DNA of 61,501 nt from Candidatus Cloacimonadota bacterium (GCA_030445745.1 JASUTE010000009.1:1-61501); one strand, 5' to 3'. Shown: positions 27,621 through 51,035, numbered from the stretch's first letter. A program made the numbers and translations. Notes: a model not told the origin generated them from the letters alone.

Positions 27621-27646
27621 AGAATGAAAAAAATGTCAGGTAGGAA

Positions 27647-28265: not shown

Positions 28266-28267
28266 TG

Positions 28268-29566
28268 TTAATCCTTCTTTAAAAATATACTTCCAATGTT
28301 TGGTTTAGCCCCAAATTTTCCAGCTTTATAAGCTTTTAGATAGTCCATACCTTTGCGAATATCTGTAGATTTAAAATCTGCTAAAGAATAAAGTTCAGTA
28401 GCTCCGGCTTCATTTTTTTCAGTAAACCAAATTACATCTCTTCGTACTTCGTCAGGATCAGACATAAAATCTAAACTATGAGAAGTAATTATAAGCTGAG
28501 AAGCTGGCGAATTAGCTAAAAATGTGTTAATATAATAATTTATTAGGTCTGGATGCAAGCTTCGCTCAATTTCATCTATCAGTAAGATCCTATCATTGCT
28601 AATTATTTCATTTAGAGGCCCACCCAAACCGAAAAATCTTTTAGTACCTTCAGATTCTTTGTCAAAATTTAATGGTATTAAATTTTGCTTTTCCTCGTTG
28701 ATAATATCATGCATAAACAGAAGTTCTCTGCTTTTTAGAGTCTCCTCGGCTAAAATATCATTTTTTACTTTTTCAGGTATATTAGCGTCATCTGAAATAT
28801 ACTTTCTAAGATTGTCATCTACTTTTATTGTTTGTTCTTTTATTTCTAAATCGTTAATGTTAAAATCTGCCTTTTGTAGCAAATCAACTATTAAATTTTT
28901 ACAATTTATATTTTCCTCTATTTTATTCATTGTCCATATATCTAATCTTGTGTTATGTCTAATGATAGGTAACATCTGTTTCTTAAACCAATCAAAGACG
29001 TTATATAGTACTTCTGATTTTATGTTAGTAACTTGTAGTGCTGAAAGTAATGTCATAGAATTTACGGTATTAGTTTCTAAAGCATCTTTAAATTTCTTTT
29101 CTAATTTTACAGTTTTATGGGTACCAAATTTAATATTACCTAAATTCCTATGATATACTTCTACAGGTTGTCCGCTTGGATAATATTCAAGTATTTCTTC
29201 CTTAATTTGAAATCTACTTAATTTAACTAAGTAATGATGTTTTATCTTGTTATGAAAAAAGAAGATTTCAAATTCTCCAGGTTTTTTAGTTGTTTCTTCA
29301 TCAAATGCGAATGGTTCAAATCCTGTTTCATCTTCCATTTCTCTTGGTTTTATTGCTATATGTCGAAGAAAAGATAAAGCTCTTAAAATATTAGTTTTAC
29401 CAGAGGCATTTGATCCATACAAGATGGCAAATTTTAATAATTTAATCTTGGGTGTTAATTGATGGCAATAATATTCTTCATTTGTTGTGTCAGAAGTTGG
29501 CTCAAATGATAAAGTTTGTTTTTCTTTAAACGATCTATAATTCGAAACCGAGAATTCTAAAATCAT
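28268..29566 (-). CDS. rloA: RloA-like AAA ATPase (ABC/SMC-type, AAA_15/AAA_21)
   Basis: The start is set at the ATG ending at 29566 (MILEFSVSNYRSF), behind GGAGGA; the upstream in-frame ATG lies within that ribosome site. The 432-residue protein has the typical YRSFKE start, Walker A YGSNASGKTNIL near residue 50, a signature-like region, Walker B LLIDEIERSLHP and the switch ITSHSLDFM. RloA/RloB were first noted as ORFs linked to type I restriction loci and resemble OLD-type and abortive-infection ATPases. A phage-defence role is inferred. No restriction gene is in the window. Confidence 0.88.
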   Translation of the reverse strand: MILEFSVSNYRSFKEKQTLSFEPTSDTTNEEYYCHQLTPKIKLLKFAILYGSNASGKTNILRALSFLRHIAIKPREMEDETGFEPFAFDEETTKKPGEFEIFFFHNKIKHHYLVKLSRFQIKEEILEYYPSGQPVEVYHRNLGNIKFGTHKTVKLEKKFKDALETNTVNSMTLLSALQVTNIKSEVLYNVFDWFKKQMLPIIRHNTRLDIWTMNKIEENINCKNLIVDLLQKADFNINDLEIKEQTIKVDDNLRKYISDDANIPEKVKNDILAEETLKSRELLFMHDIINEEKQNLIPLNFDKESEGTKRFFGLGGPLNEIISNDRILLIDEIERSLHPDLINYYINTFLANSPASQLIITSHSLDFMSDPDEVRRDVIWFTEKNEAGATELYSLADFKSTDIRKGMDYLKAYKAGKFGAKPNIGSIFLKKD

Positions 29567-29583
29567 TATTTCCTCCATTATTA

Positions 29584-29609
29584 TTGCATTATTTGCAAAA
29601 ACAATGCAA
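29584..29609. promoter_or_regulatory. Inverted repeat upstream of rloA
   Basis: TTGCATT (29584-29590) and AATGCAA (29603-29609) form a perfect 7-base dyad with 12-base spacing, 17 bases before the rloA start. It could bind a dimeric regulator. Confidence 0.4.
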
Positions 29610-29631
29610 AAATGATGTTAAAAAGATATAT

Positions 29632-29637
29632 TGTCAA
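29632..29637 (-). promoter_or_regulatory. -35-like TTGACA box for rloAB
   Basis: TTGACA on the minus strand ends 65 bases before the rloA ATG, and the dyad 29584-29609 lies between. Confidence 0.35.
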
Positions 29638-29679
29638 GTTTATTATAATTTCTATTAAATATTATGGAGTTCAGACACG

Positions 29680-29710
29680 AAAAAAAGGGCTTCCAATTAC
29701 GGAAACCCTT
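29680..29710 (-). terminator. Rho-independent terminator of ppiC
   Basis: On the minus strand a GGGTTTCC stem pairs with GGAAGCCC (one mismatch position) around a 6-base loop. A run of seven T follows. It starts 16 bases after the ppiC stop. Confidence 0.8.
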
Positions 29711-29725
29711 CTATTTTTAAGATAT

Positions 29726-30466
29726 TTACATCTTTTCTACTTCGTATTTTTCTTTCAGTTCATTCACTTTTTGGGTGTAAACCTGGCGCTGTTTGGCAGA
29801 GAGCAGATCTTTTTGAACACGTTCTTTTACGTCTTCAAACTTAGCTTCTACAGCTTCTTTTTTGTCGTGCAGCTTAATGATGTGATAACCGAATTGAGTT
29901 TTCACAGGCTGGCTAATTGAGCCAACTTCCATATTGAAAACAGCGTTATCATATTCAGGAACCATCTGTCCGCGCGGATACATTCCCAATTTGCCGCCTT
30001 TTTGTTTGGAAGGGCATTTGGAATATTTTTGAGCTGCTTCGGCAAAATCGATCTCTTCTTTTTGCAGCATATCATAGATCTCTTGGCATTTTTCTTGATT
30101 GTCTACTAAGATATGGCTGGTATCGGCAGATTCTGCTGTTCCATACTTGTCTTTGTTTTCTTCGAAATATTTTTTCACTTCAGCTTCAGTTACATCTACC
30201 GCATACAGGGTTTTGTTAATGTTCATCTGGGTAAGCAGAATCTCTTTCATGCGCTGCATTTCATTTTTGAATTCCGGGGTGGTGTCCAAATCGCTGTTCT
30301 GGGCATCTGCTAGGAATAAATTTTGGTTGATAAGTTCATTCAAGATCTGTTTGCGGCCAGCTTCGTTATCGAATTGAGCAGCACGCTGTGGTCCTAAACT
30401 TTTAATAAATTGATCTACATGTTCTTTGGTTATTTCTTTTCCGTTTACTTTTGCTAAAACTTGCAT
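29726..30466 (-). CDS. Parvulin-type peptidyl-prolyl isomerase (PpiC/PrsA-like)
   Basis: The start is placed at the ATG ending at 30466 (MQVLAKVNGKEIT), behind TGGAG; the longer frame adds ten unlikely residues. The 246-residue protein has an N-terminal helical SurA/PrsA-like chaperone part and a rotamase domain from about residue 120. Rotamase motifs are SADTSHILVDNQEK, the GGKLGMYPRGQMVPEYDNAVF block and FGYHIIKLHDK. No signal peptide is seen, so it appears cytoplasmic, unlike PrsA or SurA. It is transcribed alone between a TTGACA box and a terminator. Confidence 0.9.
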   Translation of the reverse strand: MQVLAKVNGKEITKEHVDQFIKSLGPQRAAQFDNEAGRKQILNELINQNLFLADAQNSDLDTTPEFKNEMQRMKEILLTQMNINKTLYAVDVTEAEVKKYFEENKDKYGTAESADTSHILVDNQEKCQEIYDMLQKEEIDFAEAAQKYSKCPSKQKGGKLGMYPRGQMVPEYDNAVFNMEVGSISQPVKTQFGYHIIKLHDKKEAVEAKFEDVKERVQKDLLSAKQRQVYTQKVNELKEKYEVEKM

Positions 30467-31218: not shown

Positions 31219-34200
31219 CTATTTCGATTTTATCCTATTTTTATAGTCGATCATCATTTTTTTCTGTAGATTATTTTGTTTCAACAATTCCAGTTTTACC
31301 TCTTCCACGCTGTACAGAAATTCATGAAGTTCTTCATTAGTAAGAGATTTTTTCTGGGGTTGTTGCTGCATTATTATTTCTGCTTGCTTTAGGTACTGAG
31401 ACAAAGAAGTATCTTTTTTCTTTAAAATTCCAGCTTTATAAAGCATATCAGCTGTCTTTTGTAATTTATGCGAATTTAAAGCATTCTTAAAATAAGTTAC
31501 TTGTCCATCATTGGCTATTGCAGTTCCTTCAACTTCCAAATAGGAAGGTATAGGAAGCAACATATTACTAATATCATAATCATCTTGATGGGTTTGCATA
31601 GAAACTATGAATTTACTGTGACTGATTAGTTTTTTTTGTTCTTCACAAGGCAGCTCACCATAAAGTAGCACAAAGTCATAAATAGCAGCTTTACCAGCAG
31701 GGATTCCCATTTTTTGCAATCCTTTCAAATTGGCAAAATGAGATGTAGGCAACACACCTGAACCAGCTTCGAAATTACACACTATACTGGCCAGAACCCA
31801 CAGATTCCAGATAGCCTCTTCAGTTATATGATCGCGGCTGTATAAAAACAAGGTTTTGGCGGGTAGATCCAGGTTGATTACCTCTTTTTCCTCTTCTTCT
31901 TCTTCATTATCGTAGTAATATTCCAAGATTTTTTCCAGCACATTCACGATCGGTTCGTCATCAAATAGTTCATCGGCAAATTCGTTGAAATCTTTATGTT
32001 CGTCAGTAATCATTATAAGTTTTTTTCCTTGGCGCTGCTGGGTGCGGATGAGGGTGCGCAAGGTCTGGCTTATTTTACCTACAATAACTATGTTTTCGGC
32101 TTCTTCTAAATCTTTGTAAGTCTTCTGTTCACTTGCCTGCAGCATATCGGCAAAACTATGTTTGTAGGAAAGAGAAGAGATAGTAGCGCCAATATTTTCG
32201 GCCGCTTTTTTCAGCATCAAGATTTCTTCATTACTGCTAGTGGGAGATACGTAAATATGTTTGCTTTTAGCTTCTTGCCATTTTTGTTTCATAGTGTGGG
32301 TTGCTTGGGAAGCTGGGATTGGTTGCCAATTTTGTTCTTGTCTCACATAAGTTTCATCTATACGGCTTTCGTCATCGTAGATTTGCCAGCCAAATTTACC
32401 GTAGAAACAGAGGTTACGACCATTGAAACCTGCATCGGTAGCTGGCCGGATTTGGGTTATGCGGTCTCCCTGTTTTTCAATTTCAATTTTGCAGCCAGTA
32501 CCGCATAAACCACAGTTTTGAGTAATGATTTCACTGGGATGAGGATTAAGCTTATAGTTTTGATTTTTGGGAAGTAAAGCACCAACCGGACATACTTCTA
32601 TACATTTTCCACAGGCTTCGCAGGTGGTTAAAGAAAGGCTTTCACCAAATTCTGGTGCTACATAACTGGCAAAACCACGATAAATATAACCTAATACTCC
32701 GGGTCCTTGTACTTCAGCACAAATGCGTACACATCTTCCGCATTTTATACATTTGTTGGCATCACGCCGAATGTAGGGATGAGAGTCATCAATAGGATGC
32801 TGATTTTTGGCACCAATGAACAAATCGACGTCTACCTGGTAATCCGTGGCAAATTTACGTAAATCACAAGTTTCATTTACCTGGCAGCCGCATTCCAAGC
32901 AACGTTTAGCTTCTTTTGGTGCTTCTTCTTTCTCGAAACCCAATTCAACCTCTTTAAAATTTGTAGCACGTTTTTTAGCAGCTAATTCTGGCATCTGTAG
33001 TCTGTTCTCTTTTTCATATTGTTCATATTGGGTAGGGTCAACATCAGCTAATTTTTTCTCTTTTACAGAATTAAATACTTTTACTGGATCCAGCATAATT
33101 TTGCCTTTTAAATAGCGATCGATTGCTGTAGCAGCTTTACGGCCATCGGCTATAGCTTCAATGGCTGTGGCTGGTCCCCTGCGGAAATCACCTCCAGCAA
33201 AGATGTTCTTCATGCCCAAATACATGGTGTATTCATCTGCTTGTGCTGTAGCCCAGCGAGTTAGTGGAATTTCTTTGCCATCGATATGATTTTCCTTTTC
33301 CGCCAAAAAATCTACATCGGGGCGCTGAGATATTGCAGCTATCACAGTATCAAATTTTTCTTCAAAAAATTTTCCCGTTGGTTCGGGACGTCTTCTGCCA
33401 CTATCGTCTGGTTTTCCCAGTTTCATTTTTTCAAATTTTATCTTGGTGAGCTGGCCTTTTGTATTACCGAAATTCTCTACCGGGTTGGTTAAGAAATAGA
33501 ATTTGACACCTTCTTCTTCGGCTGCATCTACTTCATAATCTTCTGCTGGCATCTCTTTGCGAGTACGGCGATAAGCCAGGGTTACCTCTGAACCCAATCT
33601 TACGGCAGTTCTAGCACAATCTATGGCTGTATTTCCACCTCCAATTATGGCGACTTTTTTCCCCAGTTTTGGTTTATTTCCTAAGGCGTGTTCTTTTAGG
33701 AAGTCAACGCCAAGCAAGCAACCTTCCAAATTGCTGCCTTTAGCACGCATGGGAACTGCTTTTTGGGCACCCAATGCCAAGAAAACAGCATCGTAGTCGT
33801 CGCTAAGTTGCGACAGGGTTATTTTTTCACCTACCGGAGTATTGGTCTTAATTTTCATGCCATTGGTACACATTAATTTTATCTCTTTATCCAATATTTT
33901 TTTGGGAAGGCGATATTCAGGGATTCCGTAGCGCAGCCAGCCGCCAGGTTCGGGCGCTGCTTCGAAAACGGTTACGTCGTGTCCATTGTTACTAAGATAA
34001 TACCCGCAGGTTAACCCAGCAGGACCTCCGCCTACAATTGCTACTTTTTTCCCACTAGCTTTGGCTTTTTCAGGAGTCCAAGTCCAGTCATTGTTCAAAT
34101 CGAAATCGGCGGCATATCTTTTTAACTGTCGGATGGCGATAGGTTCATCTACCAAAGTACGCCGGCATTCGTCTTCACAAAAAGCAGGGCAGACACGGCC

Positions 34201-34623
34201 AATTGAAAGGGGCATAGGCAGATTTTCCTTTATCACCTTCACCGCTTCGTGGTATTGTTCGTTAGCAATGTGCGAAACATAGGTTTGCACATCAACATTA
34301 TCGGGGCAAGTTAGCTTGCAAGGTGCTACGCAATCGGCATAATGATCAGAAAGCAACAATTCCAACGCCATTTTACGTGCTTGGTGTACTTCTTTAGAAT
34401 CGGTTATAATTTCCATGCCATCTGCAACATTGGTACCGCAGGAGGTTACAAATCCCTTTCTGCCTTTTACCTGTACAGCGCATACCCAGCAGGAGCCAAA
34501 AGGTTTAAGCTCGGAGTCGTGGCACAAAGTAGGTATTTCTATACCATTTTCATTGGCAACTTCTAATATGGTTTTTCCTTCATCGGTTTTTACTTCTTTA
34601 TTATTTAATTTTATAGTTATCAT
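31219..34623 (-). CDS. GltD/NfnB-NuoG fusion flavoprotein, StnC-like large subunit
   Basis: The 1134-residue protein combines several modules. An N-terminal [2Fe-2S] NuoG-type domain (C34, C45, C48, C62) comes first. A GltD/NfnB-type N-terminal Fe-S segment (about 95-155) follows. The flavin/NAD(P) oxidoreductase has GGGPAGL near 200 and GGGNTAID near 330. Then come two [4Fe-4S] motifs (about 625-678) and a molybdopterin-Fe4S4-like motif NCGLCGTGC near 703. A degenerate NuoG-like tail of about 420 residues ends the protein. No hydrogenase H-cluster motif and no clear molybdopterin ligand Cys or Sec is seen. With NuoF- and NuoE-like genes it resembles Sporomusa-type (Stn) electron-bifurcating transhydrogenases, expected to link NADH, NADPH and ferredoxin. 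It is last in the operon, 15 bases after its partner. Confidence 0.8.
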   Translation of the reverse strand: MITIKLNNKEVKTDEGKTILEVANENGIEIPTLCHDSELKPFGSCWVCAVQVKGRKGFVTSCGTNVADGMEIITDSKEVHQARKMALELLLSDHYADCVAPCKLTCPDNVDVQTYVSHIANEQYHEAVKVIKENLPMPLSIGRVCPAFCEDECRRTLVDEPIAIRQLKRYAADFDLNNDWTWTPEKAKASGKKVAIVGGGPAGLTCGYYLSNNGHDVTVFEAAPEPGGWLRYGIPEYRLPKKILDKEIKLMCTNGMKIKTNTPVGEKITLSQLSDDYDAVFLALGAQKAVPMRAKGSNLEGCLLGVDFLKEHALGNKPKLGKKVAIIGGGNTAIDCARTAVRLGSEVTLAYRRTRKEMPAEDYEVDAAEEEGVKFYFLTNPVENFGNTKGQLTKIKFEKMKLGKPDDSGRRRPEPTGKFFEEKFDTVIAAISQRPDVDFLAEKENHIDGKEIPLTRWATAQADEYTMYLGMKNIFAGGDFRRGPATAIEAIADGRKAATAIDRYLKGKIMLDPVKVFNSVKEKKLADVDPTQYEQYEKENRLQMPELAAKKRATNFKEVELGFEKEEAPKEAKRCLECGCQVNETCDLRKFATDYQVDVDLFIGAKNQHPIDDSHPYIRRDANKCIKCGRCVRICAEVQGPGVLGYIYRGFASYVAPEFGESLSLTTCEACGKCIEVCPVGALLPKNQNYKLNPHPSEIITQNCGLCGTGCKIEIEKQGDRITQIRPATDAGFNGRNLCFYGKFGWQIYDDESRIDETYVRQEQNWQPIPASQATHTMKQKWQEAKSKHIYVSPTSSNEEILMLKKAAENIGATISSLSYKHSFADMLQASEQKTYKDLEEAENIVIVGKISQTLRTLIRTQQRQGKKLIMITDEHKDFNEFADELFDDEPIVNVLEKILEYYYDNEEEEEEKEVINLDLPAKTLFLYSRDHITEEAIWNLWVLASIVCNFEAGSGVLPTSHFANLKGLQKMGIPAGKAAIYDFVLLYGELPCEEQKKLISHSKFIVSMQTHQDDYDISNMLLPIPSYLEVEGTAIANDGQVTYFKNALNSHKLQKTADMLYKAGILKKKDTSLSQYLKQAEIIMQQQPQKKSLTNEELHEFLYSVEEVKLELLKQNNLQKKMMIDYKNRIKSK

Positions 34624-34638
34624 ACAGGTCCATCCCCT

Positions 34639-36408
34639 TTATGATTTAGTTATTGCATCAAATTTACAAGCGTCATAGCAGCTGCCGCATTTAATACATT
34701 TATCTTGATCAATTTTATGAGGTTTTTTCACTTCTCCGCTTATGGCTTCTACCGGGCAAACTCGGGCGCAGGCAGTACAACCCACACATTTTTCTGGGGT
34801 TATTTCATATTTCAACAGTGCTGTACAAACACCAGCGGGACAGCGTTTATCTTTTATATGGGCGATGTATTCTTCTCGGAAGTATTTCAGGGTGGTAAGC
34901 ACCGGGTTAGGTGCTGTTTGACCTAATCCACAAAGTGAACCTTGGCTAATGTTTTCGGAAAGTTCTTCCAAGGTTTCCAAATCTTCCATAGTTCCTTTAC
35001 CTTCGGTGATTCTGGTTAGAATTTCCAACATACGTTTAGTTCCTACACGGCAGAAGGTACATTTTCCGCAGGATTCGTTTTGAGTAAAATTAAGAAAAAA
35101 TTTGGCTACGTCTACCATGCAAGTTGCTTCATCCATCACCACCATTCCACCAGAACCCATGATAGCTCCTGTTTTGGTGATGGAATCGTAGTCAACTATG
35201 GTATCTAAAAGTTCAGCAGGTACGCAACCACCAGAGGGGCCTCCTAACTGTACACCTTTGAAGGGTTTTTCGGTTTTCATGCCACCACCCACTTTGTAGA
35301 TAACATCTTTTAAAGGCATGCCCATGGGAACTTCGATGAGCCCACTATTCTTGATTTTACCGGCTAAGGCAAATACTTTTGTACCTTTGCTTTTTTCTGT
35401 ACCATATTTATTGTATTTCTGAGCACCATTTAAAATTATCCAAGCTACGTTAGCCAATGTTTCCACATTATTTATATTGGTAGGTTTTCCCCATAGCCCA
35501 GATTGAGCGGGGAAGGGTGGCCGAATACGAGGCATACCTCGCTCTCCTTCAATCGAAGCCATTAAAGCAGTTTCTTCTCCGCATACAAAAGCACCAGCTC
35601 CCTGCTTAATATGTAAATTGAAATTGAAATCAGTTCCCAAGATATTTTTTCCTAAATAACCAGCTTCTTTTGCATCTTTTATAGCTTTTTGCAAATGCTT
35701 AATGGCCAGAGGATATTCGGCACGACAGTAGATATAGCCTTCATCGGCACCTATAGCATAGGCACCTATAGTCATACCTTCGATAATGCTGTGCGGATCA
35801 CCTTCCAATACACTACGATCCATGAAAGCACCAGGATCTCCTTCATCGGCATTGCATATGAAATATTTTTTAGGTCCCGGTGTGTCGTAGGCAAATTGCC
35901 ATTTTAAACCGGTGGGAAATCCAGCTCCGCCTCGTCCTCTAAGTCCGGAATCTTTTATCTCTTGGATTATTTGAGTGCGCTCCATCTCCTTAAGAGCTTT
36001 TTCTAAGGCTTTATAACCATCGTTTTCTAAATAATCTTGCAAACTTTCAGGATCGATCCTGCCACAATTTCGCAGTACTATTCTGGTCTGATTTTTCAGA
36101 TTTTCATTTTCGCTTCCTTCCATTATATTGGAAAGGATAACTTTATCTTTATGGATTTTTCCCTCGAGGTAATCATTCAAGATAGTTTCGACCTCTTGAG
36201 GTTGGATGTCTCCATAGGTTAGTGAATTATTATCAGCATCGATAATCTCTACCAGAGGTTCGGCAAAACACATGCCAATACAAGCAGTGCTAGCCAGGTC
36301 TGCTTCCAATTTGCTATTTTCCAGATATTTTTGAATAGCTTGGTAAACATCTCGTGCACCGGCTGCTAGACCACAACTGGCCATTCCTACTTTGATCTTT
36401 AAGCTCAA
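34639..36408 (-). CDS. NuoF/HydB-like NADH-binding flavoprotein subunit
   Basis: The 589-residue protein has an N-terminal thioredoxin-like [2Fe-2S] domain (residues 1-85, C-containing MASCGLAAG and TACIGMC). The NuoF core follows, with FMN/NADH motifs RGRGGAGFPTG and CNADEGDPGAFMDR, then an SLBB segment. The cluster motif ESCGKCTFCRVG is near residue 445. The C-terminal 2[4Fe-4S] ferredoxin domain has CVGCTACARVCP and CIKCGSCYDAC. This four-part layout is that of HydB/StnB-type subunits rather than of complex I NuoF, which lacks both end domains. It is the site of NADH oxidation and probably of flavin-based bifurcation. Confidence 0.93.
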   Translation of the reverse strand: MSLKIKVGMASCGLAAGARDVYQAIQKYLENSKLEADLASTACIGMCFAEPLVEIIDADNNSLTYGDIQPQEVETILNDYLEGKIHKDKVILSNIMEGSENENLKNQTRIVLRNCGRIDPESLQDYLENDGYKALEKALKEMERTQIIQEIKDSGLRGRGGAGFPTGLKWQFAYDTPGPKKYFICNADEGDPGAFMDRSVLEGDPHSIIEGMTIGAYAIGADEGYIYCRAEYPLAIKHLQKAIKDAKEAGYLGKNILGTDFNFNLHIKQGAGAFVCGEETALMASIEGERGMPRIRPPFPAQSGLWGKPTNINNVETLANVAWIILNGAQKYNKYGTEKSKGTKVFALAGKIKNSGLIEVPMGMPLKDVIYKVGGGMKTEKPFKGVQLGGPSGGCVPAELLDTIVDYDSITKTGAIMGSGGMVVMDEATCMVDVAKFFLNFTQNESCGKCTFCRVGTKRMLEILTRITEGKGTMEDLETLEELSENISQGSLCGLGQTAPNPVLTTLKYFREEYIAHIKDKRCPAGVCTALLKYEITPEKCVGCTACARVCPVEAISGEVKKPHKIDQDKCIKCGSCYDACKFDAITKS

Positions 36409-36419
36409 AATGCCCTCCC

Positions 36420-36878
36420 TTATTTATATTTCTGCAAAAACTCTGTTACTTTTTCCGGTGTTAATTTCCCGTGCGTGTTGTCATCAACCATCATTACAGG
36501 TGATAAACTGCAACAACCCAGGCAGGCTACTTCCATAACTGTGAAAAGTCCATCATCGGTGGTATCTTCCAATTCACCTAGTTTCAATTCTTTTCTTATA
36601 GCCTTACCGATGTCTTCTGCGCCAGAAACATGGCAAGCAGTTCCCTTACAAACTCGAATAATGTGCTTGCCTTGGGGTTTTAGACGAAACATTGAGTAAA
36701 ATGTGGCAACACCGTAAATACGAGCTAATTTGATCTTCGTTTTTTGAGATAAATAGCGCAAGGTTTCTTTGGGAAGATATCCTTCTAACTTTTGGATTTC
36801 TTGTAACAAGGGAATTAACGAACCTTTTTTTCCGATAAAATTGCTGATTGTCAAATCGATCTCTTTTTTGTTTTTCAC
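36420..36878 (-). CDS. NuoE/HydC-like [2Fe-2S] subunit
   Basis: The 152-residue protein has a helical N-terminus and a thioredoxin-like [2Fe-2S] fold. Its four ligands are in the order C-x4-C (CKGTACHVSG) and C-x3-C (CLGCCS, with the spacing of NuoE). Typical family residues include YGVATFYSMF. It passes electrons between NuoF-type FMN and the rest of the complex. It is the first gene of the three-gene operon, with AAGGAG-type ribosome site and a TTGACA box 63 bases upstream. Confidence 0.92.
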   Translation of the reverse strand: MKNKKEIDLTISNFIGKKGSLIPLLQEIQKLEGYLPKETLRYLSQKTKIKLARIYGVATFYSMFRLKPQGKHIIRVCKGTACHVSGAEDIGKAIRKELKLGELEDTTDDGLFTVMEVACLGCCSLSPVMMVDDNTHGKLTPEKVTEFLQKYK

Positions 36879-37163: not shown

Positions 37164-37169
37164 TTGACA
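37164..37169 (+). promoter_or_regulatory. -35-like TTGACA box for the four-gene membrane operon
   Basis: TTGACA lies 72 bases before the ATG at 37242. CTTTTG follows at about 19 bases and TAGAAT at 26. Confidence 0.4.
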
Positions 37170-37241
37170 ATAAACTTTCCCAAGATTTCTTTTGATAGAA
37201 TTTTTTAAAAGCAAAACTATAAATAAGAAAAGGAGAGCTTT

Positions 37242-40232
37242 ATGAGGGTAAGCCATTCATGTAGAAGCCTTTTTTTGGCTTTAATGGTACTCAGTTTCTT
37301 ACTTATACCACTCCTTTCTTTTGCTGCTGAATCTGAGCAAGAATATGTTGTTCAAGGTTTGAAAGTAGAAGATATTCCAGATGATGATGGAACGGGGTTG
37401 GTAATAAGTTGGAAACCTCTGCCAAAAGAAAAGAAGATCATTGAGTACCGTGTATATCGCGGGGTAACCACTGATTCTCTTTTTTATATTGGAAAGGTCG
37501 ATGTAAATGTGGAAACCGGAGTATCTGGCGACGTTATGTATTTCTACGATAAAGATTACAACTATTTTGTCGATCTGCAAGCTTCTGGTAGTTTGAAACG
37601 TGAAAAACAACAAGATGAGAACAGTCCACTATTTCGCCGATATCCACGCGATATTAACATTATCGGCCGCGAATTGAAAAATTATGATATTTTAGGGGTA
37701 ATTCCAGAGAAAGATTTTTACTACCGCAACAAAAAAGTGGAGGTGGAAAACGAAAATGGCGATAAAGAGATCTATGCTGGTTTCAAACTACATCATTTCG
37801 CTCAGATGGCAAAAAAACTGAAACCTGACCATAAATATTATTACACGGTTCTGGCTGTCAGTCAAGCTCGTCACTACTATCCACATGCCAAACCTCAGAT
37901 TGGAATTCCCAGAACAAATTCACCGGAAAAGATAAAACAGTTTTATCCCGTTTATGTTGAAGATAAACAAAGACTGCAATTCGAATGGGGATTACCACTT
38001 TTTGCTGATGACCATAACGACCACAATATCTATGCATTAAAAAAAGAAGACCTTCAGCAATTTCGCAATTATGTGGATGCCATAAAGAAAAAAGAAGCGA
38101 ACGATTTGGAACGGAAGATAGATCCAGAAACAGAAATTTACCAAGTGGATGTGGAAAATCCTGCTGAACTTATCTTTAACCGTTATTGTGGTTATCCCTA
38201 CACACCTTCCCAAATTGCTACTGTGCAATTGGAAAATGGTAAAGTGGTAGATGAGGAAAATGGGATTAATTACACATTCGATCTGGATAATATTGAAGAT
38301 TACTATTTTGTATTTTCCATAGATGATAGAGATGGTTACGAAACATTTACTGAAGCACATCCAGCTGAAATTATTCAATCGGAAACACTTCCTAAAATTC
38401 CTGAATTTAGCCAAAATTTTCTCTATAAGGTTATCGACCGTAAAGATGATAAAGGTGACTATAATAGAGTAATGTGGGGCAAACCAGTTGTTGCACTTAC
38501 CAATTCAACATACCTACGTGAAGATAAAACCAAGATTATGGTGAACTACGAAATGTATACAAACGAGTATTACAAGATTCACGATGTGTACTTTAAGGTA
38601 TACAATGAAGAGGGCAAGCTAATAGACGATATCAACGAATATTATCAAGACAGAAAGTTAAAAATCACTTTAGAAAAACCTTCCAACCGGCTTTCATTTG
38701 TGATGACCTTTAATACCAATCCTGATATACAAGGAGAATATCGCTTGGAGCAGGAATTAGTTTATGATACCCAATCAAAATCGTTGAAACCTAGTAAACT
38801 ATTTTTAGTTTCCAATGGATATTCAGAAATAGTAGATAATTATAAATACTCTGTTTATAAAAGAAATTACACAGATGAGGAATTCCGTCTTTCTAAAAGG
38901 GTTGCGGGAATGTTACGCGAATTAGATGATAACATTCCATATGAAAACGCGATCTTCAAAGGTATTTCCCAATGTGATATGGAAAAAGGTTTATACTATG
39001 CTTCCCCCAGTTTTGTAATACGAATGACAAACGATAAAAAAGATTATATTGTTGGCAATCTTTATCGCGAAGCAGCAGAACAAACTATCGTAGATTATCA
39101 AAATGAGATTGAAAAATACCAAGCTCTAATCGATACAGCTCTTACAGAACAAGCTAGGATGCAGGCTGAACAGGCGATAGAATATTATCAGAAGCAGATA
39201 GAACTAAACAAAGAAAATTATATTTTAAAAACAGCTGCTCAAATAAATGGTAAAGATAGTCGTACCAAATTTCTGGATAAGTCACGTCGTATTGCCAATC
39301 GTAGTTTTGAATATAAACTTGTAAAAAGTGACGGGAAAGGACATTTTGTAGAAAGTTCTATCTTCTTAACCGAAGACGGTAAGAAACCAGAGGAGATCAC
39401 CCAAAAATTTGCGGCTGGTTTCCCTACCTTGGGTAAAACCCATTACTATCCCAAACCAAATTGGTTCCAGAGCAACAAACTTCCAGCACTTATAGCTACC
39501 CTGATTTTTGGAACGCTGGTATTTGTTATGATCAATCGTGCTAAAAAAGGTTATGATCTCTACATTAGACCTATTGCTGGGATTGAAGAGATTGACAATG
39601 CAATTGGACGTGCTACCGAGATGGGCCGCCCGATTTTGTTCGTACCAGGACTTTCCAGTATCCAAGATGTTGCCACTCTGGCTGGACTCTCTATTTTGGG
39701 GCGGGTAGCCAAAAAGGCAGCTGAATACGATACCAAGCTGTTGTGTCCAGTACGTGACCCCATAGTATTGCCAATCGCGCAGGAAACTGTAAGAGAAGCG
39801 CACTATGAAGCTGGCCGTCCCGATACGTTCGACAAAAACAATGTTTTCTTTATCACTACAGCTCAATTCGCTTTTGTTGCCGGCGTGAATGGTGTTATGA
39901 TTCGTGAGAAAACAGCTACCAACTTCTATATGGGAATGTTCTGGGCTGAAGCTCTGATCATGACTGAAACTGGCGCTACAACTGGAGCTATTCAAATCGC
40001 TGGGACAGATGCTGTAACTCAGATCCCATTCTTTATTACCACATGTGACTACACGCTGATAGGGGAAGAGTTATATGCAGCTTCTGCTTACCTTGCCCAT
40101 GAACCGTTGATGATGGGTACACTTAAAGCCCAAGATTATACAAAATTCTTAATTATAATATTTATTATAGCAGGAACGATCTTATCGACTACGCATTTGA
40201 CATTCCTGATAAATGCATTTCCTGAAAAATAG
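37242..40232 (+). CDS. Large FN3/DUF6754-like membrane protein of unknown function
   Basis: The 996-residue protein has a signal peptide (about 1-29) and a long extracytoplasmic part (30-745). That part opens with a fibronectin-III-like module (ISWKPLPKEKKIIEYRVYRG) and includes a Gln/Glu-rich coiled-coil stretch near 625-660. A membrane segment at about 747-765 follows. Then a compact, highly conserved-looking domain (about 768-960: GRPILFVPGL, VRDPIVLPIAQE, TETGATTGAIQIAGT) leads to a last membrane segment (970-990). From memory, the C-terminal part resembles the Pfam family DUF6754; this could not be checked. AAGGAG precedes the start. The next gene follows after 8 bases. No enzymatic motif is recognised, so function is unknown. 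Confidence 0.75.
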   Translation: MRVSHSCRSLFLALMVLSFLLIPLLSFAAESEQEYVVQGLKVEDIPDDDGTGLVISWKPLPKEKKIIEYRVYRGVTTDSLFYIGKVDVNVETGVSGDVMYFYDKDYNYFVDLQASGSLKREKQQDENSPLFRRYPRDINIIGRELKNYDILGVIPEKDFYYRNKKVEVENENGDKEIYAGFKLHHFAQMAKKLKPDHKYYYTVLAVSQARHYYPHAKPQIGIPRTNSPEKIKQFYPVYVEDKQRLQFEWGLPLFADDHNDHNIYALKKEDLQQFRNYVDAIKKKEANDLERKIDPETEIYQVDVENPAELIFNRYCGYPYTPSQIATVQLENGKVVDEENGINYTFDLDNIEDYYFVFSIDDRDGYETFTEAHPAEIIQSETLPKIPEFSQNFLYKVIDRKDDKGDYNRVMWGKPVVALTNSTYLREDKTKIMVNYEMYTNEYYKIHDVYFKVYNEEGKLIDDINEYYQDRKLKITLEKPSNRLSFVMTFNTNPDIQGEYRLEQELVYDTQSKSLKPSKLFLVSNGYSEIVDNYKYSVYKRNYTDEEFRLSKRVAGMLRELDDNIPYENAIFKGISQCDMEKGLYYASPSFVIRMTNDKKDYIVGNLYREAAEQTIVDYQNEIEKYQALIDTALTEQARMQAEQAIEYYQKQIELNKENYILKTAAQINGKDSRTKFLDKSRRIANRSFEYKLVKSDGKGHFVESSIFLTEDGKKPEEITQKFAAGFPTLGKTHYYPKPNWFQSNKLPALIATLIFGTLVFVMINRAKKGYDLYIRPIAGIEEIDNAIGRATEMGRPILFVPGLSSIQDVATLAGLSILGRVAKKAAEYDTKLLCPVRDPIVLPIAQETVREAHYEAGRPDTFDKNNVFFITTAQFAFVAGVNGVMIREKTATNFYMGMFWAEALIMTETGATTGAIQIAGTDAVTQIPFFITTCDYTLIGEELYAASAYLAHEPLMMGTLKAQDYTKFLIIIFIIAGTILSTTHLTFLINAFPEK

Positions 40233-40240
40233 GAGGATTG

Positions 40241-40864
40241 ATGAAACGACAGATACCTTTAATGATTGTAATGATATTAGGGTTTTTGTTCGTGATCCAT
40301 ACATTTGTGCCTCATAAGATATCAGCCGATTTCTATGATTGGTGGCAGGAATGGGCTAAAGCTATCTCACCCTTTGCTGTTGTGCTCGGGGTTATTAGCT
40401 TAGGTATGGTTCACGGGACTAAGATATCTCGTAAAGCTCCGAACTGGCAATATAGTCTGGTTACAGTTTTGGCCTTAGTATTTACAGCTGCATCCGGATT
40501 TATCTGGGGGCGCCAGGAAGGTACGCCTTACATGTGGTTGTTTAAAAATGTACAAATGCCTATGAGTGCTACAATGTTCTCGCTGCTGGCATTTTATATA
40601 GCATCTGCTGCCTACAAAGCTTTCCGGGCTCGTTCAGCTGAGGCCACTGTGTTGCTTATCGCAGCTATTATTGTTATGCTGGGGCAAGTGCCCCTGGGTA
40701 TGCAGATCTCGCGCTGGATTCCCGATATTTCCACCTGGATCTTAAATGTTCCTAACATGGCAGCTAAACGTGCCATTATGATAGGTGTTGGTTTAGGAAT
40801 GGTGGCTACTTCCCTGAAGATATTGCTTGGAATAGAAAGAACATATCTGGGCGGAGGTGATTAA
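40241..40864 (+). CDS. Six-helix membrane protein of the four-gene operon
   Basis: The ATG at 40241 is chosen because AGGAGG ends four bases before it; a TTG three bases earlier is less likely. The 207-residue protein is almost all membrane, with about six hydrophobic segments. Short charged loops link them (HGTKISRKAPNW, WGRQEGTPYMW, YKAFRARSAE). A Gly-rich tail ends the protein. No family is recognised. It begins 8 bases after the large FN3-type gene and ends 1 base before the next start, so the products are made together. Confidence 0.75.
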   Translation: MKRQIPLMIVMILGFLFVIHTFVPHKISADFYDWWQEWAKAISPFAVVLGVISLGMVHGTKISRKAPNWQYSLVTVLALVFTAASGFIWGRQEGTPYMWLFKNVQMPMSATMFSLLAFYIASAAYKAFRARSAEATVLLIAAIIVMLGQVPLGMQISRWIPDISTWILNVPNMAAKRAIMIGVGLGMVATSLKILLGIERTYLGGGD

Positions 40865-40865
40865 T

Positions 40866-41885
40866 ATGGAAAAAAGAAAAATGACACTTGTGCAAAGAAT
40901 GCAACAATTGGATCGTCGTTATATCTACATTGTTATTGCAGTAGCCATTATTATTCCTTTGCTTATTCCTTTCAATACCAAAACATATGTAACTGAGCCC
41001 ACAGCCAATATTTATAAGAAAATAGATTCTTTTGCTGGCAGAGAGGATAAAGCTATCTTGATGTCTTTTAACCATGATGCTTCTACTATGCCAGAACTAT
41101 TTCCGATGGAAGTTTCTATCTTACGGCATTGCTTTGAAAGAGACGTGAAAGTGTTTACTTTATGTTTCATGCCACAAGCTGCTCCTTTGGTAGATTATGC
41201 TATCAATACTGCTAAAGAAGGTTACGATGTAACTTCAGGTGTAGATTATCTGAATTTTGGATATCGTCCTTTTGCCTTGCAGCTCCCTATTATTTTAGGA
41301 ATGGGTGAAGATATAAGTAATGCTTTGGAAACTGATTCCGAAGGTAGAAAAATAGAAAACATGGAGATTATGGAAAATATCCGCAATTACGATGATATGA
41401 ATTTGGTTATTGATTTCTCTGGATCAGCCAGTATTCAAACCTGGATTATCTATGCACGGGCAAAATTCGGAGCTAATATTGCCGCCGGTATTACAGCAGT
41501 AATGGTGGCAGACAATTACCCTTACCTGCAAACAGGACAGCTGGTGGGTATGTTGCGCGGGTTAAAAGGCGCTGCTGAATATGAGAAACTTGTTGATATT
41601 TTTGCGGCTTACGAAGATGAGGATTATCCGAATGGTAGACCCTATAGCCAGGAAATCCTAAAAGAAATTAATGTTCCAATAACTGCAGATAAAATTATTT
41701 ACGAGGTTACCAATGAGGATGGTTCAGTGGATAAAATCTCTACAAATGCCGAGATGAAGTATGAATACAAAAAAGCTCGTATTGGTATGAATGCACAATC
41801 TGTAGCTCATGTCATGATAATAGTTTTCATCATTGTGGGAAATATTGGCTATTTCCTTACTCGTAAAAATAAGAAGTTAGGTTAG
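40866..41885 (+). CDS. Membrane-anchored protein with a large soluble domain, four-gene operon
   Basis: The ATG at 40866 is chosen behind GGAGGTGA; a GTG at 40857 would fall inside that site. The 339-residue protein has a short basic N-terminus, one membrane segment (about 18-37) and a soluble alpha/beta domain (about 50-305). The latter has ILMSFNHDAS, RDVKVFTLCFMPQ, GYDVTSGVDYLNFGY, DMNLVIDFSGSA and GITAVMVADNYPYL. A C-terminal membrane segment (about 312-331) and a KKNKKLG-like basic end close it. The hydrophobic strand and loop pattern suggests a Rossmann-like fold outside the cytoplasm. No known motif fits. The next gene starts after 8 bases. Confidence 0.75.
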   Translation: MEKRKMTLVQRMQQLDRRYIYIVIAVAIIIPLLIPFNTKTYVTEPTANIYKKIDSFAGREDKAILMSFNHDASTMPELFPMEVSILRHCFERDVKVFTLCFMPQAAPLVDYAINTAKEGYDVTSGVDYLNFGYRPFALQLPIILGMGEDISNALETDSEGRKIENMEIMENIRNYDDMNLVIDFSGSASIQTWIIYARAKFGANIAAGITAVMVADNYPYLQTGQLVGMLRGLKGAAEYEKLVDIFAAYEDEDYPNGRPYSQEILKEINVPITADKIIYEVTNEDGSVDKISTNAEMKYEYKKARIGMNAQSVAHVMIIVFIIVGNIGYFLTRKNKKLG

Positions 41886-41893
41886 GAGGAATT

Positions 41894-42487
41894 ATGACTT
41901 TAAGCAATTTTGTAGCCGCATTCCTGACTTTATGTATATTCTCGTTTCTATACAAAGAAAATCCATTCTATAGATTTGGCGAACACCTCTTGGTTGGTGT
42001 GTCAATGGGATATGCTATTCCACTAATTTACGATACTGTCTTTATTCCCTATGTATATCGTCCGATCTTTCTGGATCATAATTACATAATTATTATTCCA
42101 GCAGTATTAGGTTTTCTGTATGTATTTCGTTATTCCAAAAACCTCAGTTGGCTAGCACGTTACCCTATCGTATTCGGAATGGGTATCGTGGGTATGAGTG
42201 TGCCTATGTCGATGCACTCTCAGGTTCTTGTGCAAATGAAAACTGCTATGCTACCGCTGGATAATATCAATACCATTCTTATCTTTATTGGTACAGTTAC
42301 TATTCTGCTCTATTTCTTCTTCTCGAAAGCACACAAAGGAGCTTATGGAAAAGTAACCAATATTGGGGTATGGTTCATGATGATAGGTTTCGGAGCTTCA
42401 TTTGGATACACTGTGATGGCCCGTATTTCTCTGTTAATTGGACGTATCCAATTCCTGTTAGGAGATTTTCTGGGTCTTATAAAGTAG
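41894..42487 (+). CDS. Multi-helix membrane protein closing the four-gene operon
   Basis: The 197-residue protein has about six hydrophobic segments. It includes GEHLLVGVSMGYAIP near the start, GMGIVGMSVPMSMHSQV in the middle and GFGASFGYTVMARISLLIGR near the end, the last two with polar residues inside helices. No family is recognised. AGGAGG precedes the start. It ends 23 bases before a strong terminator, so the operon is 37242-42487. Confidence 0.75.
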   Translation: MTLSNFVAAFLTLCIFSFLYKENPFYRFGEHLLVGVSMGYAIPLIYDTVFIPYVYRPIFLDHNYIIIIPAVLGFLYVFRYSKNLSWLARYPIVFGMGIVGMSVPMSMHSQVLVQMKTAMLPLDNINTILIFIGTVTILLYFFFSKAHKGAYGKVTNIGVWFMMIGFGASFGYTVMARISLLIGRIQFLLGDFLGLIK

Positions 42488-42510
42488 ATAAAGTCAGTTA
42501 AATATAAGCA

Positions 42511-42538
42511 GCCCGAGTTTTTGCTCGGGCTTTTTTTT
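42511..42538 (+). terminator. Rho-independent terminator of the four-gene operon
   Basis: GCCCGAG pairs with CTCGGGC around a loop of about six bases, followed by eight T. Its T-run touches the stop of the convergent glycosyltransferase gene. Confidence 0.9.
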
Positions 42539-43802
42539 ATTCTATTATGTCAATTAATTGCTTAGTCAAATTTCTGCGGCTGTATTTCAGGTAGGAAGCA
42601 GACGCAGACTGCCAAACCCGGTTATTTTGCCAATTTTCGTAAAGAGTGCGAATATATTGATAAATATTTTTTTTATCATCATAGGGAAACATCTTACCGC
42701 TTCCTGTTTCCTGTAATATTGCTGCTGCTTCGCCATCGGTTGGTCCCAAGCCCAAAATTGGAATTCTAGAGCCCAAATATTCAAAAATTTTACCGGTAAG
42801 TATGCCTTTGTTGTTCTTTAGCTTGTTTATTATAAGCAGCAGAAGCTGAGAATTAACCATCTTTACTAAGATCTGGGAGTGAGGTAAATAGCCATGAAAG
42901 TTAACAATCTTAAACTTATCTTTGGCTTGTATTTTAGCTTGCATTTCTGGTAAATAATTACCCCAGAAATTCATCTCAAACTTATTTTTGCCAGATTCTA
43001 TTAATTCATTTACTGTCGTTAGTACAATCAGCGGGTTAGTTTCATTTGTTAAGCTGCCAAAGTAGTTTATTTGGAATTTCTCTGACTTTTCATAGTAGAT
43101 ATCGGTAAAATCATCCTCATCGAAACCATTGTGCAGTACTTTAATCTTTTCCAAATTATTGAAATCTGCTTTTATCTTTTGGGAAACAACAGTAATTATA
43201 TCGCTTTGGCGCAGCACTTTTGCTTCCAACTTTTTATCGAAAAATTCAGTAATTGGCAGGCGGCCAGCAGTTTTTAGATAGCTCATCTCGCTCCAGGGAT
43301 CACGAAAATCTGCTAACCATTTTATCGAAAACTTTTTGGTCAGTTTAGCAGCTATAAGGTGGGTGGAATGGGGAGGGCCGGTGGAAACAAGTAGATCGTA
43401 ATTTTCTTTTTGCAACTCTGCTTTAGCTGCTTTGTAGGCATACCGATTCCATAGCTTGCGCAGGTCGGGTATTACAAAGTTCAGGCGAAGAAAGAACAGG
43501 ATCTTTTTCCTAATACTACTCTTTCTATCTGTTTGCAAAGATCCATAGGGCAGAGCAGCATTTCCAGAAACCTTTTTGAATATTCTTCCTATGTTGGGAG
43601 TGTAAGTTCTAATAACTTCAACGGTGTCTGGTACTTCTTTCAATAGGCTGGTATCTAAGGCGGGGTAATCTCCATCTCGGGTGGTTATCACGGTAGGCTG
43701 CCAACCAAATTCTGGTAGGAATTTTACAAACTTAAGCCATCTTTGCACCCCCGGCCCACCGCTGGGTGGCCAATAATAAGTTAACAAAAGCAATTTTTTC
43801 AT
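42537..43802 (-). CDS. Two-domain (GT-B, GT4-like) glycosyltransferase
   Basis: The start is set at the ATG ending at 43802 (MKKLLLLTYYWPPSGGPGVQ), behind AGAGGTGA; the longer frame adds 17 residues. The 421-residue protein has the N-terminal glycosyltransferase-4-like domain with YYWPPSGGPGVQRW. A Rossmann C-terminal domain carries a conserved nucleotide-sugar region (KIFEYLGSRIPILGLGP, DGEA). It likely adds sugars to surface polysaccharide, but no other surface-sugar gene is adjacent. No membrane segment is seen. Confidence 0.85.
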   Translation of the reverse strand: MKKLLLLTYYWPPSGGPGVQRWLKFVKFLPEFGWQPTVITTRDGDYPALDTSLLKEVPDTVEVIRTYTPNIGRIFKKVSGNAALPYGSLQTDRKSSIRKKILFFLRLNFVIPDLRKLWNRYAYKAAKAELQKENYDLLVSTGPPHSTHLIAAKLTKKFSIKWLADFRDPWSEMSYLKTAGRLPITEFFDKKLEAKVLRQSDIITVVSQKIKADFNNLEKIKVLHNGFDEDDFTDIYYEKSEKFQINYFGSLTNETNPLIVLTTVNELIESGKNKFEMNFWGNYLPEMQAKIQAKDKFKIVNFHGYLPHSQILVKMVNSQLLLLIINKLKNNKGILTGKIFEYLGSRIPILGLGPTDGEAAAILQETGSGKMFPYDDKKNIYQYIRTLYENWQNNRVWQSASASYLKYSRRNLTKQLIDIIE

Positions 43803-43818
43803 CTTCACCTCTAAATCT

Positions 43819-43824
43819 TTGACA
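43819..43824 (+). promoter_or_regulatory. -35-like TTGACA box for the 80-residue ORF
   Basis: TTGACA ends 51 bases before the ATG at 43876. ATTTG follows at about 18 bases. Confidence 0.4.
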
Positions 43825-43875
43825 ACTATCTTTATTTTATGAAATTTGTCCAAAAAAATATTAGGGAGAATATTT

Positions 43876-45550: not shown

Positions 45551-46894
45551 TTACGTAAGAAAAATAGTTGCGAATCCCAGAAAAGAAGCAAAACCACCAA
45601 TATCGGTTAACATAGTTATGATAACACTGGAAGCGAGAGCTGGATCTATTTTCAAAGATTTCATGATGATTGGAATAAGCGAACCCATTAAGCCGGCAAT
45701 AAACATGTTGCAGATCATAGCAGCTCCCAAAATTATTCCTAACATCAAATTGCCCTTTAAAAAATAGGCAATTACAGTGGCAAAGCTGCCAATGATGATG
45801 CCATTGATAACTCCTACCCCAATTTCTTTTAATATTGCCCGAAAAGTATTGTGAATGGTTAGCTCACCCAATGCTATCCCGCGGGTAATTACTGTAAGTG
45901 TCTGAGTCCCTGAGTTACCGCCTAATCCAGCAACAATTGGCATAAGTACAGCCAAAACCGATAACTGCTGGATCGTATTCTCGAAAATTCCTACTACAGA
46001 GGAAACTATCAAAGCAGTAAACAGATTTAAAGTTAGCCAAGGCAAGCGTTTTCTAACTGAGTTCAAAGGTTTGGTAAAAACTTTGTCCTCACTCTCCAAG
46101 CCTACCATTTTGTAAGCATCTTCCGAAGCTTCTTCATCAATTACATCGATAACATCGTCTACAGTAATTCTACCTAAAAGATGCCCTTGTTTATCGATAA
46201 CGGGCAAGATATAAAGATCGTATTTACGAAATAGATGTGCTACTTGTTCTTGATCCAATTCTACGTCAGCAGTGATGATATCAGTGTCCATAATATCTTT
46301 AGCACGAGCTTGTGCTGATTGCCATAGCAGTTTAGTTATATCCAATCTACCTAATAACTTATTTTTACTATCTATTACAAAAGCGTAGTGGATATTTTCT
46401 ACCTCATGCGCTTGAGATTTAATATATTCAACGATTTCATCTCTTTTCATATCCGGTTTAACAGCAATAACCTCCAGCTGCATAATACCACCGGCGGTAT
46501 CTTCTGGATATTTAATCAATTGGCGTATTTCGCTGGAATCTTCAAAATCAATTTTATCCAGTTTTTTCAGAAGGCTTTCGGTTCTAGAGTGCTCTAAATC
46601 TGCCAAAATATCAGTAGCTTCATCGGAATCCATCTCATCCAAAATTTTAAGAAAGCGTACCTCTTTGATTTTGTTAATAAGTTCATCTTTGATTTCATCA
46701 TAAAGTTCGGGGAGTACATCAGAGGCTGTTTCTGCAGAAAGAAGGCGAAAAGTAAGCAGGCGAAATTCTTCCGGTAGTTCATTTATGAGTTGGGCAATGT
46801 CAGCGGGATGCATATTCTGGAGTAATTGTTTAACTTCGGCAAATTTCTTCTGCTCTATCAGGTTACATACGTCTTCATAAATTTCTGGTAACAT
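45551..46894 (-). CDS. mgtE: MgtE-family Mg2+ transporter (second copy)
   Basis: The 447-residue protein has a helical N-terminal domain, two CBS domains (IDSKNKLLGRLDI and HLLGRITVDDVIDVIDEEASE) and five membrane segments. It carries the classical MgtE pore loop MPIVAGLGGNSGTQTLTV and the TM5 Asp in TMLTDIGGF. It is the more canonical of the two mgtE copies and lies outside the accessory region. It is convergent with the thioesterase gene and starts 107 bases from the rplQ stop, downstream of the ribosomal terminator on the same strand. Confidence 0.95.
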   Translation of the reverse strand: MLPEIYEDVCNLIEQKKFAEVKQLLQNMHPADIAQLINELPEEFRLLTFRLLSAETASDVLPELYDEIKDELINKIKEVRFLKILDEMDSDEATDILADLEHSRTESLLKKLDKIDFEDSSEIRQLIKYPEDTAGGIMQLEVIAVKPDMKRDEIVEYIKSQAHEVENIHYAFVIDSKNKLLGRLDITKLLWQSAQARAKDIMDTDIITADVELDQEQVAHLFRKYDLYILPVIDKQGHLLGRITVDDVIDVIDEEASEDAYKMVGLESEDKVFTKPLNSVRKRLPWLTLNLFTALIVSSVVGIFENTIQQLSVLAVLMPIVAGLGGNSGTQTLTVITRGIALGELTIHNTFRAILKEIGVGVINGIIIGSFATVIAYFLKGNLMLGIILGAAMICNMFIAGLMGSLIPIIMKSLKIDPALASSVIITMLTDIGGFASFLGFATIFLT

Positions 46895-50248: not shown

Positions 50249-51019
50249 TTAACCTTTCTGTTTCACTAGGGTTAATATTTCAGCTTTTCCATCACGAATT
50301 AAAATCGTGTTCTCAAAATGAGCTGAAAGTGAACCATCTGCAACTTTAAATACCCAGCCTTGCTCATCAACACGATTAGTTCCGATATTCACCATAGGTT
50401 CTATCGCAATTGTCATTCCCTCTTTCAGCCGCGGTCCTAAACCTTTTCTTCCGATATTGGGAATGCTGGGTTCTTCATGTAGTTGCCTCCCGATTCCATG
50501 ACCGGTGAGGTTGTCTGCAACGTAATAACCCTGGCTGGCTACAAATTTACCAATAGCATGCGATATATCACCTACTCTGGCACCAGCTCTGGCTTGTGCT
50601 ATTCCTCTGTCAAGTGCTTCTTGGGTTACCTGCATTAATTTTTTTGCTGTATCGGAAATCTCGCCAACAGCATAAGTTCTGGCAGCATCTCCATAGAAAC
50701 CATCTTTATAAACCCCTACATCAATACCGATGATATCTCCTTCTTGTAAAATTACTTTTTTAGAGGGTATACCGTGTACAACGTATTCATTTACAGAGGC
50801 ACAAATTGCACCAGGAAATGGCTTTAACCCCGGTATCCTGTAACCTTTGAAGGCTGGTTTTCCACCTTGAGAACTAATATATTTATCAGCAAACTTATCT
50901 AACTCATAGGTAGAAACACCGGGCTTTACTTTTTCGTACATTTTTTGTAGCAATATACCCACAATGCGGTTACTTTCTCGCATTTTCTCAATTTCGTAAC
51001 TGTTTTTTATTTGAATCAT
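50249..51019 (-). CDS. map: Type I methionine aminopeptidase
   Basis: The 256-residue protein has the five metal ligands of MetAP. Asp is in GIDVGVYKDGFYGDAART (two Asp), His in TGHGIGRQLHEEP, and Glu in IEPMVNIG and HFENTILI. HGIPS holds the substrate His. It removes N-terminal Met from new proteins. It is 16 bases after secY; the usual adk gene between them is absent. Confidence 0.97.
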   Translation of the reverse strand: MIQIKNSYEIEKMRESNRIVGILLQKMYEKVKPGVSTYELDKFADKYISSQGGKPAFKGYRIPGLKPFPGAICASVNEYVVHGIPSKKVILQEGDIIGIDVGVYKDGFYGDAARTYAVGEISDTAKKLMQVTQEALDRGIAQARAGARVGDISHAIGKFVASQGYYVADNLTGHGIGRQLHEEPSIPNIGRKGLGPRLKEGMTIAIEPMVNIGTNRVDEQGWVFKVADGSLSAHFENTILIRDGKAEILTLVKQKG

Positions 51020-51035
51020 GCTACTTTTCCTTTCA

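Follow-up and report, generated by a model that had tools for sequence, protein, structure and literature searches.

A conserved four-gene DUF6754 membrane operon of Candidatus Cloacimonadota and its linkage to a MutL/GlmL-family ATPase

A four-gene operon (g1 to g4) within 61,501 nucleotides of a Candidatus Cloacimonadota genome (GCA_030445745.1 JASUTE010000009.1:1-61501; the whole stretch is called the window here) belongs to a gene set that is conserved in order across phyla, duplicated into two types (A and B), and linked in several lineages to genes for a soluble ATPase of the MutL/GlmL family with intact motifs (MutL) and for a protein with a weak barrel-sandwich hybrid (BSH). The four proteins are proposed to form one inner-membrane complex, serving as the membrane half of a trans-envelope machine coupled to ATP, a reading given a probability of roughly 0.4. 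Of the undescribed, stable inner-membrane complex suggested by the initial annotation, "undescribed" is borne out by family and literature searches, while a stable complex is suggested by synteny rather than by a predicted interface.

Conservation, gene order and the two operon types

A Pfam profile search placed g1 in DUF6754 (PF20539) with 396.7 bits against a curated cut-off of 27 (residues 738-991), confirming a domain that had first been described only as DUF6754-like. A match to g1 was present in 38 of 40 relatives, and a scan of GTDB species genomes yielded at least hundreds of relatives. The best 80 of these span at least 11 phyla (Cloacimonadota, Fermentibacterota, Edwardsbacteria, WOR-3 and Stahlbacteria, Zixibacteria, Latescibacterota, Coatesbacteria, CSSED10-310, Effluviviaceae, Mcinerneyibacteriota and Planctomycetota), and other phyla may carry the domain as well. 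DUF6754 was found in 122/125 Cloacimonadota genomes (69/71 among those of good quality) and in 41/149 Planctomycetota genomes. Synteny counts are based upon loci from genomes picked for carrying DUF6754 or BSH. Of 138 distinct g1 genes in these loci that have enough sequence behind them, 118 lead into g2, g3 and g4 in this order, with spacing that hardly ever exceeds 60 bases, and the median gaps in conserved loci are 11, -1 and 4.5 bp (g1-g2, g2-g3 and g3-g4). Furthermore, pairwise identities calculated for one subunit track those of the other three (Spearman 0.64-0.77), and dozens of positions of DUF6754 are invariant. Both the shared order of all four genes in several phyla, which the initial annotation had expected of a genuine system, and their co-occurrence outside the source genome, whose lack it would have counted against one, are thus observed in at least 11 phyla. 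Because of this conservation, chance open reading frames are ruled out for the four genes. A gene set this conserved, near-universal in Cloacimonadota and with BSH similarly frequent in Zixibacteria and WOR-3, probably serves a basic function.

The operon and its signals in the window, together with the second operon of the source genome, are as follows.

37164-37169, + strand: TTGACA box (sequence)
37231-37237, + strand: ribosome-binding stretch AAGGAGA of g1 (sequence)
37242-40232, + strand: g1, type A, 996 aa
39453-40214, + strand: DUF6754 domain (PF20539) of g1 (Pfam; genome-wide profile match at the same coordinates; AlphaFold2, mean predicted local distance difference test score (pLDDT) 90)
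~39534-40145, + strand: alpha/beta part of DUF6754 between two transmembrane helices
40241-40864, + strand: g2, 207 aa counted from ATG
40866-41885, + strand: g3, 339 aa counted from ATG
41894-42487, + strand: g4, 197 aa
42510-42539, + strand: intrinsic terminator, hairpin 42510-42531 with T-run (folding energy versus shuffles)
G000:C6, locus L013 6908-10183: second complete four-gene operon, type B, g1 of 367 aa

Spacing from stop to ATG is 8 (g1/g2), 1 (g2/g3) and 8 (g3/g4) bases, and all four genes have good Shine-Dalgarno stretches (AAGGAG, TAGGAGG, GGAGG and TAGGAGG, from g1 to g4), in agreement with the tight packing and strong ribosome sites first described. As for the operon bounds, the strong terminator proposed earlier holds (-16.9 kcal/mol, z -3.9, with 0/200 shuffles equally stable) and also serves a convergent gene at 42537-43853. 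The TTGACA box is present, but the functional promoter attributed to it is unproven, since a sequence scan gave no matching -10 box at a distance of 16-18 bases and promoter-like sites across the operon region are at shuffle level (22 found, 21.0 expected). No RNA element in the operon region reached Rfam gathering scores.

The g1 of the second operon is likewise a DUF6754 member far over the cut-off. A tree built from the concatenated core proteins of all four genes separates types A and B into distinct clades, and the source genome holds both. The type A clade includes the window operon and long-armed Cloacimonadota, Coatesbacteria, Fermentibacterota and others, and the type B clade includes the second copy together with, among others, two of the three Zixibacteria sets that lie in tandem. 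At 17 loci two or three sets follow one another, and most of these loci include both types; in other phyla adjacent A and B sets are preceded by the MutL/GlmL-family ATPase and BSH. These clades and tandem loci indicate that the A/B duplication is old and that A and B probably belong together. The operon is therefore not self-contained as first supposed: the window holds the type A half, and the type B copy, the MutL/GlmL ATPase and BSH are encoded elsewhere in the genome. Some Cloacimonadota families carry an extra long-armed g1 after g4 with no second g2-g4 (L014 8287-11229, L015 8693-11482 and L016 1633-4467).

Predicted architecture of the four membrane proteins

The g1 protein is predicted to consist of a signal peptide, an extracytoplasmic arm of ~700 residues, a transmembrane (TM) helix, the Rossmann-like DUF6754 domain and a second TM helix. 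The arm includes FN3-like parts and a helical stretch. An FN3-like start of g1 had been proposed; FN3 (PF00041) stays below threshold in the window protein (E 0.007-0.017) but matches better in 5 of 12 relatives (best 2.5e-5). Arm length varies from ~700 residues in type A Cloacimonadota to ~110 in short forms and 0 in some planctomycetes. At the planctomycete loci L151, L152 and L158 g1 is armless and g2 carries an insert of ~150-600 residues in its outside TM3-TM4 loop; this exchange between g1 and g2 suggests an exchangeable arm mounted on a fixed core. The "large outer part" described at the outset thus exists, but as a variable attachment and not as the core, and the conserved DUF6754 domain is predicted, by the positive-inside rule applied over alignments, to face the cytoplasm. 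Conserved residues of g1 include K242 of the modelled stretch, invariant and in or beside a TM helix, and C209, the only highly conserved cysteine of DUF6754.

Hydropathy and alignment give six TM helices for g2. In g4 the six helices were assigned by eye, an automatic scan being less clear, and with this proviso hydropathy fits the two six-helix proteins described before. The positive-inside rule predicts g2 to be N-in/C-in, g4 to be N-out and the g3 domain to be extracytoplasmic. In g3 a Rossmann-like alpha/beta domain (~40974-41795) lies between two TM helices, and both hydropathy and an AlphaFold2 model (mean pLDDT 94) agree with the earlier description of an alpha/beta domain between two anchors.

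The AlphaFold2 models of the DUF6754 region of g1 and of g3 have a common order of elements (TM, helix, six strand-helix units, TM). A profile comparison of the two was no better than shuffled columns, so the likeness is one of fold only and homology was rejected, as was homology between g2 and g4 (hhalign probability 1.9%). Foldseek searches with both models gave no match at E <= 0.001. The weak matches of the two models were to SIS, Moco-carrier (SLOG, LOG/Moco-carrier), RCK and other nucleotide-binding Rossmann-like folds; in g1 and g3 these soluble domains differ in being TM-anchored on both sides, with no sequence link to those families. An ILEI-like domain in g3, matched in 4/62 members at E ~0.001, was set aside. 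No family in Pfam, NCBIfam, PHROGs or PADLOC was matched above cut-off by g2, g3 or g4, and PDB sequence searches with profiles of all four proteins, BSH and MutL returned nothing convincing. A defence or phage origin was rejected, as the PADLOC defence models had no match among six proteins tested and the PHROGs phage families had none. In line with the first assessment, family searches gave no match to established families for transport, secretion, defence or proteolysis.

These features could also be read as a new solute or ion transporter, in which g2 and g4 would form the path, g3 would catch substrate outside, DUF6754 would gate and MutL-BSH would regulate or power transport. Consistent with this are the two six-helix proteins of opposite orientation, the weak resemblance of the Rossmann-like domains to SIS, RCK, Moco-carrier and nucleotide-binding proteins, and the invariant polar or charged residues in or near TM helices: R177 and R184 of g4, located within and behind the last helix, Q311, H315 and N326 of g3, in or beside a TM helix, and K242 of g1. 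Since no transporter family was matched, no metabolic gene is fixed beside the four-gene set in all phyla, and a large, replaceable arm would be unusual for a transporter, this explanation is considered unlikely.

The partner proteins MutL and BSH

MutL and BSH precede g1, in many loci directly, in Planctomycetota, CSSED10-310, Effluviviaceae, some WOR-3 and some Zixibacteria loci, and the two are fused in some genomes. MutL is ~600 residues long with an extra C-terminal region. BSH (~375 residues) contains a weak barrel-sandwich hybrid (RnfC_N, Biotin_lipoyl) and KOW-like parts, with a Rossmann-like part recognized by eye. The source genome encodes both arrangements.

G000:C33, ~50792-53803: MutL and BSH
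G000:C27, ~26956-29862: MutL-BSH fusion

MutL is a member of PF13941, the family of the methylaspartate mutase accessory protein GlmL and of Or-4, with scores over the cut-off (431 bits for MutL of L103 and 330.6 bits for the fused copy of the source genome). The ASKHA motifs DCGSTTTK (phosphate-1), DIGGATTD (phosphate-2) and SGG (adenosine) are intact, being invariant or nearly so in 23 sequences, and mean column identity across phyla is 62%. The partner ATPase differs from the described members in its association with BSH and a membrane complex in place of a mutase, and it remains far under the NCBIfam equivalog cut-offs (233.8/475 bits for GlmL and 218/600 bits for Or-4). Across 149 Planctomycetota genomes DUF6754 was present in 41, BSH in 37 and both in 36 (Fisher p = 6e-28, uncorrected for kinship). 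BSH was also detected in 24/25 genomes of mixed phyla tested, the source genome included, in 59/60 Zixibacteria genomes and in 55/60 WOR-3 genomes.

MutL-BSH might instead serve only as a chaperone or reactivase for amino-acid enzymes or membrane proteins, with the four-gene complex a passive structure. GlmL and Or-4 annotation has MutL/GlmL relatives accompanying amino-acid mutases dependent on B12 or pyridoxal phosphate, and in Cloacimonadota the partners are mostly unlinked to g1-g4. Against it stand the close operon association and joint occurrence seen in other phyla, and this is the least probable of the alternatives.

In many loci a small protein of ~120-150 residues, conserved across phyla and with no Pfam family, is encoded directly upstream of MutL and is probably another component. 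Examples are given below.

L186 7416-7778: small protein upstream of MutL
L195 11405-11809: small protein upstream of MutL
L074 4272-4727: small protein upstream of MutL

In several phyla the glycine dehydrogenase subunit 2 gene gcvPB sits just upstream of the genes for the small protein and MutL-BSH (L070, L073, L074, L085, L195, L232, L239 and L240), and lipoate-ligase-like genes, read by eye, lie near MutL-BSH in L232 and L192. These neighbours prompted the idea of BSH as a lipoyl carrier, which was rejected because no invariant lysine (lipoate/biotin acceptor) exists among 29 BSH sequences.

A redox- or one-carbon-linked ion pump of Rnf/Nqr-like design would combine BSH as a peripheral subunit with a Rossmann part, two six-TM subunits of ~200 residues and coupling to glycine cleavage. 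Six-TM subunits of ~200 residues, similar in size to g2 and g4, are found in Rnf and Na+-NQR, and the likeness extends at most to this pair and a barrel-sandwich peripheral subunit. RnfC_N and NqrA_N match BSH weakly (17 and 6 of 29 members, best 5.4e-6, with the one member examined in detail falling just under the cut-off), gcvPB is upstream of MutL in seven loci and a lipoate-ligase-like gene is near it in two (by eye). On the other hand, g2 and g4 have no Rnf/Nqr match at E up to 1, cofactor cysteines are not conserved (none at the highly conserved positions of g2, g3 or g4, and C209 as the single one in DUF6754), BSH lacks the invariant acceptor lysine, and the present system has an FN3-like arm with a signal peptide and two TM-anchored Rossmann-like subunits instead, making such a pump highly improbable.

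In Zixibacteria, Tol-Pal-like genes (TolQ, TolR, TonB/TolA, TolB and Pal, by eye) directly follow BSH at L210 (10324-14872) and at L213, and at both loci a secreted protein of ~260 residues is encoded between MutL and BSH. In Cloacimonadota an M23 murein-endopeptidase-like gene, with ShyC/MepM-like matches under cut-offs, lies on the same strand upstream of type A g1 at 14 loci, mostly within 180 bases (L004, L006, L008, L010, L011, L014, L026, L027, L030, L032, L034, L035, L037 and L038). Both neighbourhoods, and the swapping of the arm between g1 and g2, would suit a sensor of envelope state or a control of the cell wall, in which the arm and g3 read or steer the periplasm and MutL-BSH acts as cytoplasmic switch, comparable to FtsEX steering activators of M23 endopeptidases. 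The idea shared with FtsEX and other ATPase-coupled envelope switches is that a cytoplasmic ATPase moves a periplasmic arm; the ATPase here is ASKHA and not ABC, and the membrane subunits belong to no known family. The M23 gene is beside neither the window operon nor the type B operon of the source genome, and the Tol-Pal linkage was seen in a single phylum, so that this role is judged rather unlikely.

The proposed machine, its standing and neighbouring genes

According to the preferred reading, an ATP-coupled trans-envelope machine, g1 (DUF6754) inside and g3 outside would each present a Rossmann-like domain between two TM helices. The core would be an antiparallel quartet, given the opposite orientation of the six-helix proteins g2 and g4. 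Soluble MutL, a MutL/GlmL-like ASKHA ATPase, and BSH would bind from the cytoplasm, probably at DUF6754, and ATP binding or hydrolysis by MutL would switch the membrane core. The conformational change would then be relayed via g2 and g4 to g3 and the optional outer arm, which would be active in the periplasm. The complete machine in most lineages is probably a type A plus a type B quartet. Gene order, partner linkage, the A/B duplication and the intact ATPase motifs are observed directly, and topology and folds are predicted. That the four proteins associate, where MutL-BSH docks, that ATP is coupled, which way signal or work flows and what it acts on are deductions.

Several observations weigh against this scheme. 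MutL and BSH are mostly on other contigs than g1-g4 in Cloacimonadota, and the parts do not always occur together: one genome (G201) has BSH without DUF6754 and five planctomycetes show the reverse, although genes can be missing from draft assemblies. The synteny counts come from related genomes chosen for DUF6754 or BSH. ASKHA proteins in the GlmL group could act as chaperones or reactivases instead of motors, and the pseudo-symmetry of g1 and g3 may be convergent because sequence homology between them is not detectable. The glycine-cleavage or Tol-Pal genes beside MutL-BSH in some phyla could point to a different role. Furthermore, interfaces among g1-g4 and an ATPase activity of MutL are assumed.

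To our knowledge, Pfam entry PF20539 is a domain of unknown function only. A literature search found no paper on DUF6754 or PF20539, with subscription journals mostly outside its coverage, and searches for GlmL and candidate phyla gave nothing relevant; in the literature searched, the domain is catalogued, and its partner genes, fold, A/B duplication and system are without description. The system is thus undescribed even though DUF6754 is catalogued, and its suggested function is read from the genes themselves. It is set apart from known kinds by the failure of the defining tests for Rnf/Nqr, GlmL equivalogs, lipoyl carriers and defence systems. Only tentatively, and with more doubt than confidence, may it be called a new class of trans-envelope machine, driven by an ASKHA protein rather than by ABC, AAA or ion-driven components, with an antiparallel membrane core that bears a Rossmann-like domain on each face and with A and B quartets paired since an ancient duplication, occurring almost universally in several candidate phyla and irregularly in Planctomycetota. 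If the proposal is true, a widespread bacterial machine becomes testable, with a parts list for one genome of two quartets, a MutL and BSH pair and a MutL-BSH fusion.

Other genes in the window include a three-gene set divergent from the operon (31219-36878) that resembles an electron-bifurcating hydrogenase or an NADH dehydrogenase and encodes a 1134-aa Fer2/Pyr_redox/molybdopterin-type fusion, a NuoF-like and a NuoE-like protein. Two MgtE-type magnesium transporter genes are located at 24768-26123 and 45551-46894, and two DUF3857 proteins are encoded close together at 19061-20989 and 21654-23525, the first with a transglutaminase core. A histidine kinase with a solute-binding sensor (SBP_bac_3) and PAS domains is encoded at 9633-12161, with a TctA-type transporter gene nearby at 2839-4329.

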